Both the position numbers and the translations under genes were made by a program. 37,354 bases of DNA from IMG/VR virus record IMGVR_UViG_3300048839_001685, positions 1 to 37,354 of that record; one strand, written 5' to 3'. Source of the DNA: a virus. Numbering within the stretch: position 1 is the stretch's first letter; the number at the start of each line of letters is the position of its first letter. The notes beneath the pieces were generated by a model. That model worked only from the letters and a program-made list of their open reading frames with translations. It ran no database searches and was not told where the DNA came from. Positions 5,826 through 37,087 of the stretch are shown in pieces.

Positions 5826-5995
5826 TCTCTGGGTCTCTGTGGTGAAAAAACAGGGAGTGACAGGCGGGACGGCGGCCCCACCGAGATGATGGAGGACACG
5901 GCTCGGCGAGCCGTGCCACCGCGAGCCGTGCCACCGAGAGCCGTGCCACTTCGCCACTTCGCCACTTGACCACTTCGCCACTCGACCACTTCCCC
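5775..5995. repeat. Repeat cluster: A, degenerate C, B, CCACTT motif
   Basis: Family A at 5775-5846; a degenerate C at about 5857-5883; B with two extra half-units at about 5894-5946; then five to six copies of a CGCCACTT/GACCACTT octamer to 5992. The octamer run abuts the GTG start of the terminase small subunit candidate, which leaves it no ordinary ribosome-binding site. Confidence 0.85.
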
Positions 5996-28380: not shown

Positions 28381-28748
28381 TCCCGGTCTGCGGGCTGATC
28401 GAGCGGGCCCTGGCCGAGTTCGACCTGGACGCGTCGGCGCTGCTGGCGGGCGTGGTCGTCGACTGCGCGCCGCAGGGCCTAGTCCCCGAGCGGGTCAGCG
28501 TGCTGGCGATCGGGGCGCCAATCTGGGCCGAGGCGGTGATCGGCGTCGAAAACCTGAGCGGGGGGGCGGCCCGGCCGTTCGACCCCGCGATGACGCTGGC
28601 GGCGCCCGGCTCGGGGTGGGCCGAGGCGCTCTTCGGGGAGGAGGAGCGCGTGAGCCGGATCCGCGTGGGCGTGGCGACGGCGCAGAGCGGTGAGCGCGTC
28701 AGCGTGCGGGTGGTGGGGTTGTTTGCGCGCTCGGCGGGCGACCGGTAG
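28377..28748 (+). CDS. Hypothetical protein ending the tail operon
   Basis: A 123-residue protein with a GTG start overlapping the previous stop. It is beta-rich (LLAGVVVDCAPQGLVPERVSVLAIGAPIWAEAVIGV; VSRIRVGVATAQSGERVSVRVVGLF), probably another virion or assembly protein coupled to the beta-helix protein. No family is recognised. It ends in a duplicated 12-base motif (GCGACCGGTAGG at about 28737-28760) and overlaps the convergent HTH gene by 50 bases. Confidence 0.6.
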   Translation: MIPVCGLIERALAEFDLDASALLAGVVVDCAPQGLVPERVSVLAIGAPIWAEAVIGVENLSGGAARPFDPAMTLAAPGSGWAEALFGEEERVSRIRVGVATAQSGERVSVRVVGLFARSAGDR

Positions 28749-28917
28749 GGCGACCGGTAGGGCGACGCGCGAAGTCGGGGATCTGATCGGGCGACCAGAG
28801 GTGGGCGCGGCCGGCGTCGATCGCGGGGCGGATCTTCCGCGCGGCGGCGATCTGGCGTACGCGTGCTGGAGTGATCCCGAGGCGCTCGGCGAGCTGGCGG
28901 GTGGTGAGGTAATTCAA
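28699..28917 (-). CDS. Small MerR/excisionase-like HTH protein
   Basis: A 72-residue protein on the minus strand, from a TTG at 28917. Residues 3-50 (YLTTRQLAERLGITPARVRQIAAARKIRPAIDAGRAHLWSPDQI) form a winged-helix DNA-binding domain of the MerR/HTH_17 excisionase type: LTTxxLAxxLG, TxxxVRxxxxxxxI and the wing ending WxxxxI. Such proteins act as excision directionality factors or as repressors of lysogeny genes. The tail is a Pro/Arg/Thr-rich run from a small duplication (PTGRPTGRP). An ATG at 29055 would add 46 low-complexity residues. It probably shares the promoter at 29,594-29,621 with the gene upstream. Confidence 0.68.
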   Translation of the reverse strand: MNYLTTRQLAERLGITPARVRQIAAARKIRPAIDAGRAHLWSPDQIPDFARRPTGRPTGRPPSAQTTPPPAR

Positions 28918-29023
28918 ATCCCGGAGCCCGGCGGTGGCCGGGGCCCGGGGAGCCGCCCCCCGGCGGCTAGGTGTGTAATCGAGCCGGCCCGCGCGGAGCG
29001 AGCGCACCGGGGGGCGGCAAGGG

Positions 29024-29533
29024 TCATGCGGACACGCGGGCCAGGAATGCGGCACGACTCTCGTGCGGCTCGAGCTTGACCCCGTTGTGATGAATGAGCT
29101 TCGCGTACTCTTGGGCGGTGATCTCGGTGTATTTTTCCGGGACCTTATGACCAGGAGCGATCTCTCGCACCTCGGCGATCGGCTGCCAGATGGTGCGGCC
29201 GTACGCGCCGCGATCGCGGCGGAAGGCGACTGCCCAGCCGTACCGCGTCACGCTCGCGGCGGCTTTCGCCGCGGCCACCCGATCGGCGAGACGCGCCATG
29301 CTCGCGGGCGTGGCATCTTCGACCGAGAAAAAGTAGCAGCGCCCCATGCCCTTGCCGCCAGGTCGGAACCCAGCGTGGTGCCACTCGGCAGCAAGCGGCT
29401 TGAGGTCGGCGGCGGTGACCGGGTAGCCGGCCTTCCGCATGGCAGCTGCCAGTTCGCCTGCAGTCAACTTATTCTCGTTCGCCCTCGCGGCCGCGTGGCG
29501 CTCGCTCACAGCTCCAGACTCTGCCAGTGCCAT
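29024..29533 (-). CDS. Hypothetical protein in the leftward regulatory block
   Basis: A 169-residue protein on the minus strand. The ATG at 29533 is chosen because AAGGAG lies seven bases away; ATG 29539 lies one base after it. The N-terminal part (ENKLTAGELAAAMRKAGYPVTAADLKPLAAEWHHAGF) looks like a DNA-binding or helical-bundle domain, followed by a beta part (CYFFSVED), a central helix (ASMARLADRVAAAKAAAS) and WAVAFRRDRGAYGRTIWQPIAEVREI. No family is recognised. A clear sigma70-like promoter lies about 60 bases upstream, so it is expressed in the lysogenic direction and could be a regulator or an immunity gene. Confidence 0.68.
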   Translation of the reverse strand: MALAESGAVSERHAAARANENKLTAGELAAAMRKAGYPVTAADLKPLAAEWHHAGFRPGGKGMGRCYFFSVEDATPASMARLADRVAAAKAAASVTRYGWAVAFRRDRGAYGRTIWQPIAEVREIAPGHKVPEKYTEITAQEYAKLIHHNGVKLEPHESRAAFLARVSA

Positions 29534-29593: not shown

Positions 29594-29621
29594 AGTATAT
29601 CGTACCGGCAAGACTTATCAA
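29594..29621 (-). promoter_or_regulatory. Sigma70-like promoter, leftward
   Basis: Reading the minus strand: -35 box TTGATA (29621-29616), 16-base spacer, -10 box TATACT (29599-29594). The region is notably A/T-rich for this genome. The expected start point is near 29,587, giving a leader of about 55 bases before the gene starting at 29533. Confidence 0.75.
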
Positions 29622-29684: not shown

Positions 29685-30209
29685 TTAGAAGACCGGGTGG
29701 ATGGGGTCGAGGAAGAGGTCGCGGATGCCGCCGGCGACCAGGGCCCAGAGCACGGCGCAGACCAAGGCCAGGATCGGCAGCAGGAGGCTGAAGATCAGCA
29801 GGGTGATGAGGACGCGCCAGCCGATGGCCTCGGCCAGACGCTTGATGGTGAGGGGGTCGAGGGAGAGGCCTTCGAAGGAGACAGGCGGGACGCCTGGGCC
29901 ACCGGGAGCCGAAGAGGCAGAAGACACGGCTCGGCGAGCCGTGCCACCGGGGGCCGGGTTGCCGGGAGAGACAGGCGGGACGCCTGGGCTGCCGGGGGGA
30001 GGGGAGACAGGCGGGACGCCTGTCCCACCGGAAGCCAGCAGGGCGAAGCCCTGGGCGCGGACGGCGGCCTCGGCCTCGGCCCGCGTGCGGCCCGGGACCG
30101 CGATCTCCTGGGCCTTACCCGTGACCGGGTGCGCGACGCGGAGGCGGTGGCGGGCGGGCGGCGGATGATCCGGCTGGGTCGGATGATTCGGATCGTTCGG
30201 TTGGGTCAT
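29685..30209 (-). CDS. C-terminal membrane protein with translated-repeat linker
   Basis: A 174-residue minus-strand protein beginning MTQPNDPNHP. Residues 20-58 form a small alpha/beta domain (HRLRVAHPVTGKAQEIAVPGRTRAEAEAAVRAQGFALL), as seen at the N-terminus of some secretion ATPase or DUF-type proteins. Residues about 60-115 are translated C and B repeats (GGTGVPPVS, PGVPPVS, GGTARRAV). The C-terminal part (about 130-160, WRVLITLLIFSLLLPILALVCAVLWALVAGG) is a membrane helix or hairpin. A soluble domain, a repeat linker and a membrane anchor suggest a membrane-linked regulator or exclusion protein. It starts inside the repressor gene's 3' end (95-base overlap). The ATG at 30209 is chosen over 30242. 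Confidence 0.65.
   Translation of the reverse strand: MTQPNDPNHPTQPDHPPPARHRLRVAHPVTGKAQEIAVPGRTRAEAEAAVRAQGFALLASGGTGVPPVSPPPGSPGVPPVSPGNPAPGGTARRAVSSASSAPGGPGVPPVSFEGLSLDPLTIKRLAEAIGWRVLITLLIFSLLLPILALVCAVLWALVAGGIRDLFLDPIHPVF
29879..30032. repeat. C, B, C, C repeats inside a coding region
   Basis: C at 29879-29903, B at about 29923-29950, C at 29969-29996 and C at 30005-30032, separated by short GCCGGG- or GGGAGG-type spacers, in frame with the minus-strand gene at 29,685-30,209. All units keep the frame open. Confidence 0.88.
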
Positions 30210-30747
30210 GGGCGCCCCCCTGCGGGTGATAGATCCGCACACTGTACGCGCTCTCGTCGGTCTCGATGTCCGGGTGGCGCACGGGGAGGATCGGGCCGGC
30301 GGGGCCGGCGGGGCCGGGGCTGGCGCCGCCGGCCTGCGGGGGAGGCCGGTCCACGGCGCGCAGGACCGAGCGGATCAGGTCGCGGGCGATCTCCTCCCCG
30401 ACGATCAGCGAGAGCCGCGTCGCCAGGGCGTGGGCCGAGTCCGGCTCCGACTCGGGCAGGACCTCGCCGGGATCATCGACCAGGTCCGCGATCGACTGGG
30501 CCTCGGCGCGCGTCAGCGGGCTGACGCGGTGCAGGTACGCGAGGATCGCCCGGAGCTTCTCGGGCTGACCGTTGAATCGGGACAGGCCCTCGTAGACCAC
30601 GATCGTGGTCCGCGCGACGCCCGAGCCGCGCTGCAGGTCGACCCGGTTCAGGCCGCGGCGGACCCGGAGGGACTTGAAGATGCGGCCGAAGGTCTGCGCC
30701 ACCGTGGACTTTTCGCGGGTCAGAATGGCCACGGATGAGTTTTCCAC
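30115..30747 (-). CDS. XRE-family repressor (CI-like candidate)
   Basis: A 210-residue minus-strand protein. Residues 15-75 form an XRE/Cro-type helix-turn-helix (VAQTFGRIFKSLRVRRGLNRVDLQRGSGVARTTIVVYEGLSRFNGQPEKLRAILAYL). The remaining part has a helical segment (LATRLSLIVGEEIARDLIRSVLRAV), then a Pro/Gly-rich, disordered tail. No LexA/CI-type peptidase motifs are visible, so RecA-driven self-cleavage is not supported. It stands at the divergent switch region, where phage repressors keep lytic genes off. The GTG at 30747 falls about seven bases from a candidate -10 box, implying a leaderless message. An in-frame GTG six codons later (30732) is an alternative. Confidence 0.75.
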   Translation of the reverse strand: MENSSVAILTREKSTVAQTFGRIFKSLRVRRGLNRVDLQRGSGVARTTIVVYEGLSRFNGQPEKLRAILAYLHRVSPLTRAEAQSIADLVDDPGEVLPESEPDSAHALATRLSLIVGEEIARDLIRSVLRAVDRPPPQAGGASPGPAGPAGPILPVRHPDIETDESAYSVRIYHPQGGAHDPTERSESSDPAGSSAARPPPPPRRAPGHG

Positions 30748-30753
30748 AATTTC

Positions 30754-30781
30754 AGACTACTGCTGCACCGAGTTGACGCAA
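30754..30781 (-). promoter_or_regulatory. Leftward promoter for the repressor gene
   Basis: On the minus strand: TTGCGT (30781-30776), 16-base spacer, TAGTCT (30759-30754). The predicted transcript start falls on or within a base or two of the GTG start at 30747, so the message may lack a leader, as for lambda cI from PRM. Confidence 0.5.
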
Positions 30782-30801
30782 GAGCCGAAAGTGATTAGTG
30801 T
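30773..30801 (+). promoter_or_regulatory. Rightward early promoter
   Basis: TTGACG at 30773-30778, a 17-base spacer, and TAGTGT at 30796-30801. Its -35 box overlaps that of the opposing promoter by three bases. One operator-like repeat lies in the spacer and another just downstream. Confidence 0.6.
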
Positions 30802-30830
30802 GCCCGAAAGTGTCGGTTTTCGATTTTCGG
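30785..30830. promoter_or_regulatory. Operator-like repeats in the switch region
   Basis: Two exact direct copies of CCGAAAGTG at 30785-30793 and 30804-30812 (19 bases apart, about two helical turns), and an inverted element TTTTCGG at 30824-30830 that pairs with CCGAAA. The positions would allow a bound repressor to block the rightward promoter. Confidence 0.6.
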
Positions 30831-30974
30831 ACCGGGTGAGGCGGGTTCACCACAGAGGCGCAGGGGGCACAGAGAGCACAGAGGACGTACGGCTGCTCTG
30901 TGGTGAAAAACAGGGGAGGACACGGCTCGGCGAGCCGTGCCACCCGGAGCCGGGCCAACTGAAAGGGGCGCGGG
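30831..30974. repeat. Repeat cluster: short A, B
   Basis: A shortened A at 30846-30907, lacking part of its right arm, then B with a changed extension at about 30917-30960. It forms the leader of the rightward early message. Confidence 0.82.
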
Positions 30975-31541
30975 ATGGCGAGGATCTGGGGTCGGAATGA
31001 TGACGGGCGGGGAGCCGACAGGCGGGACGCCTGTCCCATCGGGGATGGTGGGGACACGGCTCGGCGAGCCGTGCCACCGCGAGCCGTGCCACCGGGTGCG
31101 GTGTGCGTCGAATCGCACCTGGCGGGGGGGACGGGGACATCGCTGCTGGGGCGGCGGCGGATGCAGCGGGATGTGATCGCGGACGCGGCCGGGCTGGACA
31201 CGCACTTGCGGATCGCGGAGGCGCTCTGCCGCGCCTACCGCGACCTGTTCGACGGGGGCGAGCCCGATGTCAACTGGGGGCGGGCCCGCAAGATGCGGGC
31301 GGACCCGGCCTCGCTGGTGGCCGCGGCCGAGGCCGCGTCCTCGAGCTGCCCCGTGATGCAGATCGTGGTCTGGGACCTGCGGCTGGACCGGAGGGGGACG
31401 CTGGCGCTGCTGCACCGCGCGCTGCGGGTCTTCGAGGCCTGGGACGCGGGGGAGCTGATCGGCGTCTACGGCGCCGGCGAGGCGGAGCGGCGCTGCGGGA
31501 TGCGCGACGCGGCCATGAACCCGATCGGGGGGTGGTGGTGA
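30975..31541 (+). CDS. Early rightward protein with N-terminal repeats, unknown
   Basis: A 188-residue protein, the first gene after the rightward promoter (the Cro or early-gene place). Residues 15-41 are translated C and B repeats (DRRDACPIGDGGDTARRAV). The body is helical, with two repeats of Leu-rich helices (LDTHLRIAEALCRAYRDLFDGG; GTLALLHRALRVFEAWDAGELIGVYG). GAAAGGGG precedes the ATG at 30975. Alternative in-frame starts are GTG 31101 and ATG 31161, which would leave the repeats in the leader. It may be an early regulator; no HTH is evident. The end overlaps the next gene by one base. Confidence 0.55.
   Translation: MARIWGRNDDGRGADRRDACPIGDGGDTARRAVPPRAVPPGAVCVESHLAGGTGTSLLGRRRMQRDVIADAAGLDTHLRIAEALCRAYRDLFDGGEPDVNWGRARKMRADPASLVAAAEAASSSCPVMQIVVWDLRLDRRGTLALLHRALRVFEAWDAGELIGVYGAGEAERRCGMRDAAMNPIGGWW
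31017..31093. repeat. C and B repeats inside an ORF
   Basis: C at 31017-31042, then B at about 31052-31078 and a half-unit to 31,093, in frame with the gene starting at 30,975 if that start is right. Confidence 0.82.
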
Positions 31542-32476
31542 TGCTGGCGCGGGCCGTGAATGACATCGGTCAGGCCGGTGGCGTCGAGATCCGCGGGGAG
31601 CGGGTCTCGATCGAGGAGTGCCGGCGGCGGGCGTCGGCGCTGGCGGCCGAGTACGCCGAGGCCCGGCGTGCGGCGATGGGGCGGGGCGTGGCCCTGGGCG
31701 AGCTGCTGACCGCGGTGCGGGCCCAGCTCGGGCGCGGGGCGTGGGGCGCGTTCCTGCAGCGGGCCCGGATAAACATGCACACGGCGAACCGGGCGATGCG
31801 CCTGGCCCGCGAGTATGGGGACGGGGCGGGCGGGATCGACGCCGAGCGGGTCGAGGCCCGCAGGCGCGAGCGGATCGCGGCCGGTCGGATCGATCCGGTC
31901 GGGCCGCTGGCCGTCAAGCCGGTGGCGGAGATGAGCACGCGCGAGGTGGAGCGGGTGATCGGGATGCGGCCCGCGGATCGGTCCAGGCCGGAGATCAGGC
32001 CGCTGGAGATCAGGCCGCCGGCGTTCCTGGCGGGGGCGCGCTCGGTGACGATCGGCGAGACACCGGACAAAGACCCAAACTGTGACCGCGGTCACAGTTT
32101 CCCTGTTTGTACGGTGCCGGATGAGGGGATCGCGGGGCGGATTTCGCCGGACAAAGACCCAAACTGTGACCGCGTCAACATTTCGGGAGCGACCGGCGGG
32201 GGGCCTGGCTTGCCGGAAGCGGGGGGGACACGGCTCGGCGAGCCGTGCCACCAAGAGCCGGGCCGCCGGGAAGGGACAGGCGGGACGCCTGTCCCACTGG
32301 GGATGGGGGCCGGGGCGGGGGCGAGCGGGCGGCAGCTGGGGCTGATCGACCATGTCGCGACCCTGATCGACGAGCTGCACCGCGACCTGTCGGAGCACCG
32401 CGTGGGGCTGGACCAGGTGGCCGAGCGGCTGCGGAGGCTGCTCGGCCTGATCGACGGGAGACCGTCGCACTCTTGA
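31541..32476 (+). CDS. DUF3102-like early protein with repeats and a palindrome
   Basis: A 311-residue protein. Residues 15-85 (CRRRASALAAEYAEARRAAMGRGVALGELLTAVRAQLG... GAWGAFLQRARINMHTANRAMRLARE) resemble DUF3102, a helical phage domain that follows the pattern G-x-x-L-x-x-A-K... W. A second segment (STREVERVIGMRP) follows. Residues about 175-215 come from a pair of palindrome elements (PDKDPNCDR twice), and residues 222-255 from translated C and B repeats. The C-terminus is a helical pair (LIDHVATLIDELHRDLSEHRVGLDQVAERLRRLLGLID). Its gene region may hold a DNA-binding or replication site. The start is ATG 31541, sharing one base with the previous stop. DUF assignment is tentative. Confidence 0.6.
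   Translation: MLARAVNDIGQAGGVEIRGERVSIEECRRRASALAAEYAEARRAAMGRGVALGELLTAVRAQLGRGAWGAFLQRARINMHTANRAMRLAREYGDGAGGIDAERVEARRRERIAAGRIDPVGPLAVKPVAEMSTREVERVIGMRPADRSRPEIRPLEIRPPAFLAGARSVTIGETPDKDPNCDRGHSFPVCTVPDEGIAGRISPDKDPNCDRVNISGATGGGPGLPEAGGTRLGEPCHQEPGRREGTGGTPVPLGMGAGAGASGRQLGLIDHVATLIDELHRDLSEHRVGLDQVAERLRRLLGLIDGRPSHS
32063..32174. repeat. Palindromic element with a second, decayed copy
   Basis: A perfect 24-bp palindrome at 32077-32100 (halves AAACTGTGACCG and its complement) sits in a longer imperfect one at 32063-32114. The first 28 bases are repeated exactly at 32147-32174, 84 bases away and in frame, with a decayed right half. Both lie inside the gene at 31,541-32,476. Confidence 0.88.
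32204..32298. repeat. Cut C, B, half-unit and C inside a coding region
   Basis: A C-like piece (GGCGGGGGGCCTGGCTTGCC) near 32,194-32,216, B at about 32227-32253, a half-unit to 32,270 and C at about 32274-32298, in frame with the gene at 31,541-32,476. Confidence 0.82.
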
Positions 32477-32858: not shown

Positions 32859-33122
32859 GTGACGACCATACGACTCAGCGGGAGCGTCTATGTCCGCCCG
32901 GCGGACGGCGCGCCCGTGCTCGCGGTCCGGCTCGAGTGCGCGGCGGGGCACCTGTCGCGGAGCGAGCGGCTGCAAGGCGGCGACGGGATCCCGATGGCCG
33001 CGCGGATCGCGCGGACCGCGGCCGCGATGATGGCCGAGGAGCATGTGCGTGAGAGGATCGCCGAGTGGACCGCGGGCTGGACTCCGTCAGCCCAGCCCGA
33101 GCCAGCGCCGGACATGAGATGA
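32859..33122 (+). CDS. Small hypothetical phage protein
   Basis: An 87-residue protein with a GTG at 32859 behind GAAGGGG; a GTG at 32844 is possible. It has a beta start (TTIRLSGSVYVRPADGAPVLAVRLECAAG), a helix (IPMAARIARTAAAMMAEEHVRERIAEW) and a Pro-rich end. The last 36 bases overlap the convergent recombinase gene. No family is recognised. Confidence 0.5.
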   Translation: MTTIRLSGSVYVRPADGAPVLAVRLECAAGHLSRSERLQGGDGIPMAARIARTAAAMMAEEHVRERIAEWTAGWTPSAQPEPAPDMR

Positions 33123-34286
33123 GGTTTCGAGGAACGGCTCGTCGGGCAGCGAACGGATATAAGTTTCGTGCACGCCGGAGATGACATGGCCGACCATGAC
33201 CATCCGCACCAGCCGGGCCAGCTCGACGCGGGAGACCGGGGCCGTGGCCGCGACCGTGATGTGCGTGGCGCGGAACTGGCCCAGCGTGCAGGCCCGCCAG
33301 CGGCTGGATTCGTCCGGCCAGGCCGCGGCCCGCAGCGCCGCGAACCGGCGGCCCAGGCGGTCATCGTTGACGCCCATCAGCGGCGTGCCCGCCGTCGTGA
33401 CCAGGAGGCGATTTCGCGAGACGCGGCGGGACAGGGCGCGGTCCAGGGCGGCGCGGGTCTCGGGCCAGAGCGGGAAACGCCGGATGCTCTCGGTCTTGGC
33501 GCGGGGCTCGTCGATCCACCCGTGATCGTGGCAATCGGTGCGCGCCGGGCGGAAGGCCGCGGGCGTGAGCGCGGCGATGTCGGACTGACGCATCCCCCCG
33601 TTGATCGCCATCCAGAGGCAGGCCTCCATCGTCTCGCGGTCCGTGCCCTCGCGGGCCCGGCAGACCTTGATCAGGCGGCGGATCTGGCCCGGGGTCAGCA
33701 GGCCGGGGCCCGCGAGCCGCAGGTGGCGGCGGCGGACGCGGGCGGGGACCGGACGCAGCGCATCGCCGGTGTTGAACCTGATGTTGTGGTTGCGTTCCAG
33801 CCAGCGCAGGACCGAACGCAACTTTGTGATGCGGATGTGCCGGACGACAGGGCTCAGGTGGCCCCAGGCGGCGTCGATGCCGCGCGACCAGTGGGCCGGA
33901 CGGAGGCGCTCCGGACGCGAGCCCCCGCCGAGCTCGACGCAGACGCCGGCGCAGATCTGCGCGAGGTCGCGGTGGTGGGTGTGCGAGCGTTCGCCCGCGG
34001 CGACGCGGCGCTTCGAGTCGTCCAGGTAGAGCGCGAGGGCCTGGCCGAGGGTGCGGGCCGGGCTGACGACCTGCGAGTGGTGGGGATCATCGGCGAGGAT
34101 CAGCGGCCAGCGGCGGAGATATTCGGCGATGGCGCGGGCGGGGTCGTGCCGCGGTCCGAAGTAGTAGTCGCGGCCGTTGCGGCGCTTGCGCCACTGGCCG
34201 CAGGTGTGGGGCGTGAGGCGGATCAGCCCCGGCCCGTACGGGTCCGGCGTGGGGGGGAGCGGCGGGGTACTTTCGGGGGTAGCCAT
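33087..34286 (-). CDS. int: Tyrosine recombinase (integrase)
   Basis: A 399-residue phage integrase on the minus strand. The N-terminal part (to about 180) contains a core-binding domain (LGQALALYLDDSKRRVAAGERSHTHHRDL... ITKLRSVLRWLERNHNI). The catalytic domain has Arg233 in GGMRQSDIAAL, Lys264 in EPRAKTESIRRF, Arg339 in LGQFRATHIT, His367 in VGHVISG and the nucleophile Tyr376 in HETYI. The usual His of the HxxR box is replaced by Gly336. The ATG at 34286 is chosen; the open frame upstream runs through the attachment site. The enzyme should recombine attP with the tRNA-Thr site about 60 bases away. Confidence 0.92.
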   Translation of the reverse strand: MATPESTPPLPPTPDPYGPGLIRLTPHTCGQWRKRRNGRDYYFGPRHDPARAIAEYLRRWPLILADDPHHSQVVSPARTLGQALALYLDDSKRRVAAGERSHTHHRDLAQICAGVCVELGGGSRPERLRPAHWSRGIDAAWGHLSPVVRHIRITKLRSVLRWLERNHNIRFNTGDALRPVPARVRRRHLRLAGPGLLTPGQIRRLIKVCRAREGTDRETMEACLWMAINGGMRQSDIAALTPAAFRPARTDCHDHGWIDEPRAKTESIRRFPLWPETRAALDRALSRRVSRNRLLVTTAGTPLMGVNDDRLGRRFAALRAAAWPDESSRWRACTLGQFRATHITVAATAPVSRVELARLVRMVMVGHVISGVHETYIRSLPDEPFLETSSHVRRWLGLG

Positions 34287-34338
34287 TTTCCGGCGCAGCG
34301 TAACACCGGAGGAGATCACGCGTTCGGCGCGTGGCCCC

Positions 34339-34385
34339 TTGAGTTCGTAAAGCTTAGGTCGCGAGTTCGAGTCTCGCAGGTGGCT
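34339..34385 (+). other. Right attachment site: 3' part of tRNA-Thr(CGT)
   Basis: Anticodon loop TTCGTAA (34344-34350), then 3' anticodon-stem strand AGCTT, variable loop AGGTC-like, T-stem GCGAG (34361-34365), loop TTCGAGT, T-stem CTCGC (34373-34377) and acceptor AGGTGGC (34378-34384). The 5' anticodon strand (TTGAG) does not match AGCTT, and no D-arm or 5' acceptor GCCACCT is upstream, so this is a fragment. Such 3' tRNA fragments are typical prophage end marks; the complete tRNA should lie beyond the left edge. Anticodon CGT and the expected 5' acceptor fit Thr. Confidence 0.78.
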
Positions 34386-34394
34386 TGGCCCGTA

Positions 34395-34426
34395 ACCCTT
34401 GCATTCACAAGGCTTAAGGTTTTTTT
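34395..34426. other. Near-copy of the att core, with hairpin and T-tract
   Basis: The sequence 34395-34420 resembles 34335-34359 (shared CCCTTG, TTC, AA, GCTT, GGT in order). It has the stem CCTTG/CAAGG (34397-34412) and is followed by seven Ts, so it may be the terminator of the original tRNA, or an older site remnant. Confidence 0.5.
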
Positions 34427-34626
34427 GCGCGGCCCGAGCCCCCCAAAGGTGGTGGATCCGGATCCCGCATGCGAGCATCGACCAAACCCGATCAGGGAAC
34501 CCGCTCGAAACCGGTCGGACGCCTGAAAACAACGAAACCGGGCGTGTTCACGCCCTGTACGAATGAGTAGACTGCGGTACAGCCGAGCCTGGGGAACTCG
34601 GCCGCCGACCGCGACCGGAGGCCGAT

Positions 34627-35556: not shown

Positions 35557-35641
35557 TCAGCCCCCCGCCCCGCGTCGTACGGCGTGAAACTCGGCCGACT
35601 CCGGGCCTATCGTGCGTCGCGTCCGTACCCGGAGGACACGC

Positions 35642-37087
35642 GTGGCCGCGATCCCGCCGACATTCCCCACGCCCGGTCAGATCCGCGTGCATCAGATCAA
35701 GCAGCGGGTGCTCCCCCTGCTTCAGGCCGGGCAGTTCGAGCTCGCGCTCAGCCTGCTCCAAGATGTCCTGCCGCTGGACCGGCGCGACCCCGAACTCCAC
35801 AAGATGCTGGGCAGCTGCCATTCCGCGTTGGAGCAGACCGACAAGGCCCTGGTCCACCTGCGCCGGGCCGCGGAACTGGGCCTGCATGACCCCGAGACGC
35901 TGCTGATGCTCGCGGGCGTATACAGCAACACGGGCGACCTCGCCGCCTCCCTCCGCGTCATCGACCGCATCCTCCGGGAATCGCCCGACGAGCCCCGCGC
36001 GACCCAGTTCAAGGCCCGCCTCCGGCGCTCGATGGGCGACGCGAAGGGCGCCCTGGCCCTCATCGAATCGGCCCGCGCCAAGGGCATCCTCCACCCGCAC
36101 CTGTCCATCCTCCGCTCCGAGTTGCTCCGGCGCGCCAAACGATTCGACGAAGCCGCGGCGGAGATCGAGGCGGTGCTCGCCGACCCCGCGACCCGCCCCG
36201 CCGACCGGCGGGACGCCTTCTTCGAGCTCGGGCATGTGCGCGACGCGATGGGCGAATACGACGCCGCCTTCGAGGCCTTCAGCCGGGGCAACGGGATGCT
36301 CGAGGAGACCCCGATCATCCCGATCGACGAGTTCCGGCGTGTCTGGTCGCGCGAGGCGATCGACCCGATCCCGCAGCTCTCGCCCCCGAAAGATGGTCCG
36401 GTCTTCGTCGTCGGCATGCCCCGCTCGGGCACCACGCTGACCGAGCAGATCCTCGCGGCCCACCCGCGCGTCGCGAGCCTGGGCGAATCCAACGCGTTGA
36501 ATCTGATGCTCTCGGGCATGCCCCCCGAGGCCTTCCACAGCGAGAAGTCGGTCCGCGCGGTCGCGGAGGGCTACGCGGCACGCACCGTTTCCCCCCGGAC
36601 CGCCAGGGCGGCCCGCGTCGTCGACAAGATGCCGGAAAATTACTTCTACCTCCCCCTCATCGCCCGCGCGCTGCCCGGCGCGAAGATCATCCACTGCACC
36701 CGCGACGCGCGGGACACCTGCCTCTCGTGCTTCTTCCAGAACTTCGGCCCCCGCGTCACCTGGAGCCGGCGGATCGAGACCTGCGCCAGGCAGTTCGTGT
36801 TCTACCGGCAGGTCACTGACCACTGGCGGGAGACGCTGGGCGTCGAGATCCACGAGTGCAATTACGAGAGCCTCACGAGCGACCCGCGCCCCGGCGTGGA
36901 GCGCATACTCGCCCATGTCGGCCTGCCCTTCAACGAGGCCTGCATGGCCCACCACACGCAGAGGGCAACCGTGCAGACCGCGAGCGTGGACCAGGTCCGC
37001 AAACCGATCTACACGACCAGCCAGCAGCGCTGGAAGAACTACGAGAAGCATCTCGGGCCGATGCTGGAGATCCTGGAACAGTATTGA
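35642..37087 (+). CDS. TPR-containing sulfotransferase (host)
   Basis: A 481-residue host protein with a GTG start at 35642 behind GGAGG (a GTG at 35612 lacks a site). Residues 15-215 hold about five tetratricopeptide repeats (for example FELALSLLQDVLPLDRRDPELHKMLGSCH; MGEYDAAFEAFSRGN). Residues 250-470 are a sulfotransferase: the 5'-phosphosulfate loop GMPRSGTTLTEQIL (258-271) and the 3'-phosphate motif HCTRDARDTCLS (351-362). It transfers sulfate from PAPS to an unknown acceptor; planctomycetes have many such TPR-sulfotransferases, often linked to sulfated polysaccharide or protein. It starts about 85 bases after the exported-protein gene, with no clear terminator between. Confidence 0.93.
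   Translation: MAAIPPTFPTPGQIRVHQIKQRVLPLLQAGQFELALSLLQDVLPLDRRDPELHKMLGSCHSALEQTDKALVHLRRAAELGLHDPETLLMLAGVYSNTGDLAASLRVIDRILRESPDEPRATQFKARLRRSMGDAKGALALIESARAKGILHPHLSILRSELLRRAKRFDEAAAEIEAVLADPATRPADRRDAFFELGHVRDAMGEYDAAFEAFSRGNGMLEETPIIPIDEFRRVWSREAIDPIPQLSPPKDGPVFVVGMPRSGTTLTEQILAAHPRVASLGESNALNLMLSGMPPEAFHSEKSVRAVAEGYAARTVSPRTARAARVVDKMPENYFYLPLIARALPGAKIIHCTRDARDTCLSCFFQNFGPRVTWSRRIETCARQFVFYRQVTDHWRETLGVEIHECNYESLTSDPRPGVERILAHVGLPFNEACMAHHTQRATVQTASVDQVRKPIYTTSQQRWKNYEKHLGPMLEILEQY

Follow-up and report, generated by a model that had tools for sequence, protein, structure and literature searches.

Gene layout

The IMG/VR virus record IMGVR_UViG_3300048839_001685, which comprises 37,354 bases with a G+C content of 71%, was analysed whole, and this entire stretch is referred to as the window. 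Phage genes encoding a terminase, a portal protein, a head protease, a major head protein (capsid), and an integrase were recognised by PHROG matches, and no tRNA genes were found in the 37,354 bases. The integrase, terminase, portal, and capsid matches mark the record as an integrase-bearing phage genome, one of the features looked for in an immunity switch. A TPR-sulfotransferase gene at 35612-37087, with broad matches in 48 plasmid records, may represent host DNA.

The coding potential was assessed with a codon signal trained on nine genes chosen from the record. For the repressor-like gene on the left of the region 30748-30830, the minus-strand frame scored best in the windows 30200-30600, with signal up to about 30700, and by this signal the gene is a genuine coding gene (Table 1). 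No codon signal was seen between about 30700 and 31100 (windows 30700-31000); on the plus strand it begins near 31100 and supports both rightward genes. The same signal places the repressor and the early genes divergently around a common non-coding region, another feature looked for in an immunity switch. The minus-strand frames 30752-31201 and 30795-31415 and the plus-strand frame 30605-31000 were rejected as genes, their codon scores being negative, and position 30975 was rejected as the start of the right gene because no codon signal precedes about 31100.

The first 90 residues of the repressor matched the PHROG 8 transcriptional regulator (E 7.8e-4), and the helix-turn-helix (HTH) residues scored 15.1, 15.2, and 13.8 bits against HTH_3, HTH_31, and HTH_19, respectively, all under the Pfam cut-offs of 23-30.2. 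A C-terminal S24 peptidase domain of the lambda CI / LexA type was not found, and neither Pfam nor NCBIfam gave a match beyond the HTH. The single-sequence AlphaFold2 model of the protein was poor (pLDDT 42).

On the right, neither Pfam nor NCBIfam gave a match for the first gene, and among the PHROGs there was only an unknown family (E 0.14). No Cro-like gene was recognised there, though lacking a match does not imply lacking a function. Within the DUF3102-like frame that follows, a perfect 10-pair inverted repeat at 32077-32100 scored as terminator-like on both strands. Further to the left of the repressor gene, 28699-29055 on the minus strand encodes a HTH_17/excisionase-like small protein, possibly an excisionase or a second regulator. 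The record's top promoter-like site, TTGATA-16-TATACT (10/12), also lies on this side, at 29594-29621 on the minus strand; the start predicted from it, at about 29587, falls downstream of TTG 29611, the listed start codon, and the gene may therefore begin at ATG 29539.

The segment 30834-30975 matches many other places in the record, including 31052-31091, and a 401-base query from this region gave 45 further matches. Short repeats with a CACAGAG-type hairpin and a CACGGCTCGGCGAGCCGTG palindrome are scattered over the phage genome at more than 40 further places, also between structural genes. Neither the phage nor the plasmid collection contained matches to these dispersed repeats, and a dispersed-repeat pattern had no match in viral_contigs. 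Because the gap to the right of 30845 holds such recurring repeats, the rightward leader, from the predicted start to the first gene, would be about 290-350 bases long.

Table 1. Positions of the genes and sequence features around the predicted divergent promoters.
Feature	Position	Strand	Remarks
Repressor-like gene	30115-30747	-	210 aa from GTG 30747; codon signal +0.24 per codon; putative XRE-type HTH at about residues 20-73
Fifth CGAAAR	30715-30710	-	Inside the repressor gene, near +33 from the leftward start
Alternative repressor start GTG	30732-30730	-	In frame; 15-base leader; anti-SD -3.3 kcal/mol, at the background median
Possible leftward -10, TAGTCT	30759-30754	-	TAnnnT; 16-base spacer; predicted start 30747
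Possible leftward -35, TTGCGT	30781-30776	-	3/6; hexamer match; 30776-30778 common with rightward -35
Rightward -35, TTGACG	30773-30778	+	5/6; hexamer match
Rightward -10, TAGTGT	30796-30801	+	3/6, TAnnnT; 17-base spacer; predicted start 30808
Operator-like repeat 1, CCGAAAGTG	30785-30793	+	Within the rightward spacer; centre -19 from rightward start, -42 from leftward start
Operator-like repeat 2, CCGAAAGTG	30804-30812	+	Past the rightward -10, over the predicted start; centre +1 from rightward start, -61 from leftward start
Two inverted CGAAAA motifs	30822-30817 and 30829-30824	-	Second lies in TTTTCGG 30824-30830
Stretch with dispersed repeats	30845-31095		Between rightward promoter and first gene
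First rightward gene	31101 (GTG) or 31161 (ATG) to 31541	+	Coding signal from near 31100; no family
Second rightward gene, DUF3102-like	31541-32476	+	Pfam DUF3102, E 8.9e-5, 23.2 bits (cut-off 24.4)
Phage integrase	33087-34532	-	PHROG 1 integrase, E 4.7e-17; sign of temperate element

Predicted divergent promoters and the repressor start codon

All hexamer pairs on both strands were scored with E. coli frequencies, from whose consensus host promoters may deviate; on this scale, the rightward and leftward pairs ranked 2 and 33, respectively, among the 373,190 pairs scored in the window. A -35 box with at least five of six matches, a TAnnnT, and a spacer of 16-18 bases occur together at two sites only in the record, 30773 (+) and 29621 (-). 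In a stricter promoter scan with a threshold of 9 of 12, neither the rightward nor the leftward promoter was listed.

The scores were compared with those of 2000 dinucleotide shuffles of 30748-30845, and a second test with simple criteria used 5000 shuffles. The rightward score was equalled in 34 of the 2000 shuffles (43 of the 5000 under the simple criteria), suggesting that the rightward promoter, as a hexamer prediction, is more than a chance occurrence and well supported. The leftward score was equalled in 545 of 2000 and 638 of 5000 shuffles, respectively; taken alone, the leftward promoter is weak, no better than chance. Both promoters appeared together in 11 of 2000 shuffles by score and in 6 of 5000 under the simple criteria. 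The initial annotation had described overlapping divergent promoters with three bases in common between their -35 boxes. The hexamers and the common bases are present and the rightward promoter exceeds chance, whereas the leftward promoter by itself does not.

The two predicted starts are 61 bases apart, and the leftward one coincides with the G of the repressor GTG, in agreement with the earlier placement of this codon at the transcript start. This GTG is the first start codon past an in-frame TAG, which belongs to the proposed leftward -10, and its anti-SD pairing is +0.3 kcal/mol, i.e. it is without ribosome-site pairing. A leaderless repressor message beginning at GTG 30747 would fit this geometry and is possible as a prediction. 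The leaderless reading depends on the weakest element of the layout, since the leftward promoter alone is not above chance, and a repressor start at GTG 30732, behind a short leader, is equally open.

Operator-like repeats

The two copies of CCGAAAGTG, which had been reported to lie 19 bases apart in the rightward spacer and past the -10, were found at 30785 and 30804, and the inverted TTTTCGG reported with them was likewise located. Exact CCGAAAGTG is absent elsewhere in the record on both strands. The shorter motif CGAAAR, which was picked post hoc, occurs 15 times in the record; four of the copies fall in 30786-30829, and a fifth one lies at 30715. This fifth copy is the only CGAAAR downstream of the leftward predicted start, and may be a candidate site to shut off the repressor gene. 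An origin of the CCGAAAGTG repeats as part of the dispersed repeats was rejected, the latter starting near 30834; no tandem array over the CCGAAAGTG repeats and no RNA family in the region were found.

A 9-base direct repeat arose in 34 of 2000 shuffles of 30748-30845 and in 70 of 5000 in the simple-criteria test, and direct repeats of at least 9 bases were present in 140 of 761 real 98-base windows of the contig. The CCGAAA cluster was the sixth contig-wide, and clusters as extreme were seen in at least 10 of 40 shuffled contigs. The strongest hexamer cluster of the record lies at 5945-5992, where AAGTGG or its complement occurs five times in 46 bases.

XRE dimers usually have palindromes as binding sites. 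The best palindrome, which involves repeat 2, was not significant, being equalled in 147 of 500 shuffles. Repeat 2 and TTTTCGG could form a hairpin (z -1.87), but the predicted rightward message would begin within it.

With the criteria set post hoc, both promoters together with a repeat inside the rightward footprint, in the present geometry, were found in none of 5000 shuffles. The combination of promoters and repeat exceeds chance. Together, the repeats and the rightward promoter make a good candidate immunity operator.

Search for relatives

For the repressor, no relative was found in viral_contigs or genome_contigs and no match in the PDB. In the phage collection, three Listeria phage proteins matched its HTH part only (E 0.1), and in the plasmid collection there were 16 Streptomyces matches (E 0.2). 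The first rightward gene, the integrase, the DUF3102-like gene, and the pattern of the CCGAAAGTG repeat pair had no match in viral_contigs; the DUF3102-like gene had none in the phage collection, and the terminase none in genome_contigs.

The capsid protein gave eight weak phage matches and one viral contig. With a two-sequence capsid alignment, 80 distant relatives with 30-36% identity were kept. In 47 of these 80 records, no repressor or integrase relative was found, in a search that had no positive control and in which most records were fragments. HTH_3 genes were present in 3 of 12 longer records.

Proposed mechanism and alternatives

The region 30748-30830 is plausibly a prophage immunity switch, in which the repressor gene and the outward strong promoter would have a common control region. 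The initial annotation had proposed such a switch, with the repressor blocking the early promoter and possibly controlling its own. The XRE-like gene, the gap, the strong promoter, the integrase, and the phage head genes elsewhere agree with this setting, and the proposal is partly supported. The leftward promoter at chance level weakens the leaderless reading, the repeats lie upstream of that promoter, and the right-hand gene starts about 290-350 bases from the rightward start.

We consider it rather probable that a temperate phage is controlled from here, with the XRE-type repressor on the left, an early operon on the right, back-to-back promoters between them, and the repressor acting on the CGAAA repeats. 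Repressor dimers on the repeats in the rightward spacer and over the start would turn the strong promoter off and so give the dormant state. Binding should block the rightward promoter because repeat 1 lies in its spacer and repeat 2 over its start.

Repressor bound at repeat 1, which is centred at -42 from the weak leftward start, might activate its own promoter while blocking the rightward one. Lambda CI at OR2 activates PRM from a position of about -42. For the leftward promoter, activation would be more natural than a block, because both repeats are centred upstream of it; by analogy with lambda OR2/PRM and RcoLS20 of pLS20, the chances that the repressor activates itself from repeat 1 appear about evenly balanced. 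In addition, polymerase could not fully occupy both promoters at once where the -35 boxes overlap, and this would sharpen the either/or choice.

A repressor that only represses, acting on the rightward promoter and on its own, with the leftward promoter elsewhere or of a host-specific type, is unlikely as an explanation. It would account for the poor leftward hexamers, which shuffled sequences often equal, and for the CGAAAR downstream of the predicted leftward start, and the initial annotation likewise had the repressor blocking the early promoter and possibly controlling its own; the repeats, however, lie upstream of the leftward promoter, not on it.

It is decidedly doubtful that, beside a real rightward promoter, the repeats arose by chance or are the sites of some other protein, such as an integrase or a replication protein, with the XRE-like protein acting elsewhere. 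The frequency of 9-base repeats in the contig windows, the palindrome that is not significant, and the distance to the right gene, which lies behind the dispersed repeats, are consistent with such a reading. Against it, the repeats fall precisely on the spacer and the start of the best rightward promoter, and the whole combination did not arise in the 5000 shuffles.

A decayed prophage remnant, in which dispersed repeats entered the spacers and the switch no longer functions, would explain the many further repeat matches and the repeats that separate the rightward promoter from its gene, but is highly improbable, given that open frames with a positive codon signal exist for the repressor, integrase, terminase, portal, protease, and capsid.

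If the reading as a temperate-phage control region acting through the CGAAA repeats is right, the locus would offer a minimal immunity region that can be tested, in a phage whose high-G+C host is uncultured and with a repressor for which no relatives were found. It would also mark the genes to clone for immunity tests, and ideas on switch function would be unchanged. A very compact switch of an uncultured lineage, in which a short XRE-like repressor with no relatives found would act through direct-repeat operators 19 bases apart, silencing the strong promoter and switching on its own weak, leaderless message from GTG, all without Cro, seems quite unlikely.

Comparison with known systems

The layout resembles lambda OR (PRM/PR) and PY54 immB, for which the available portion of the source describes a divergent repressor and early gene, one intergenic region, and operators in the early promoter (PMC4488713). 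The cI messages of both phages are reported there as leaderless, that of PY54 beginning with AUG, and lambda CI is reported to activate its own promoter (PMC4488713). Lambda and PY54 have three related palindromic operators, whereas the operators here look like direct repeats. In addition, the start codon here would be GTG instead of AUG, no S24-type C-terminal domain was found, no Cro was recognised, and the predicted starts are 61 bases apart with overlapping -35 boxes.

The lactococcal TP901-1 CI/MOR system similarly has back-to-back promoters around a central operator, another operator lies on the lytic promoter, and a leaderless message is not mentioned in the available part of that report (PMC7250872). 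Unlike TP901-1, the present locus has no recognised MOR-like gene, and its operator sequence is different.

For self-activation, RcoLS20 of the Bacillus plasmid pLS20 is reported to repress a strong promoter and to activate its own promoter, which is weak and overlaps the strong one (PMC4207663). The pLS20 layout has overlapping divergent promoters; here, such promoters are predicted from hexamer matches. pLS20 concerns plasmid conjugation and not a phage, its promoters coincide fully, and a DNA loop and a further operator at a distance belong to the system. Overall, the putative switch is of an ordinary, known type in a poorly known phage.
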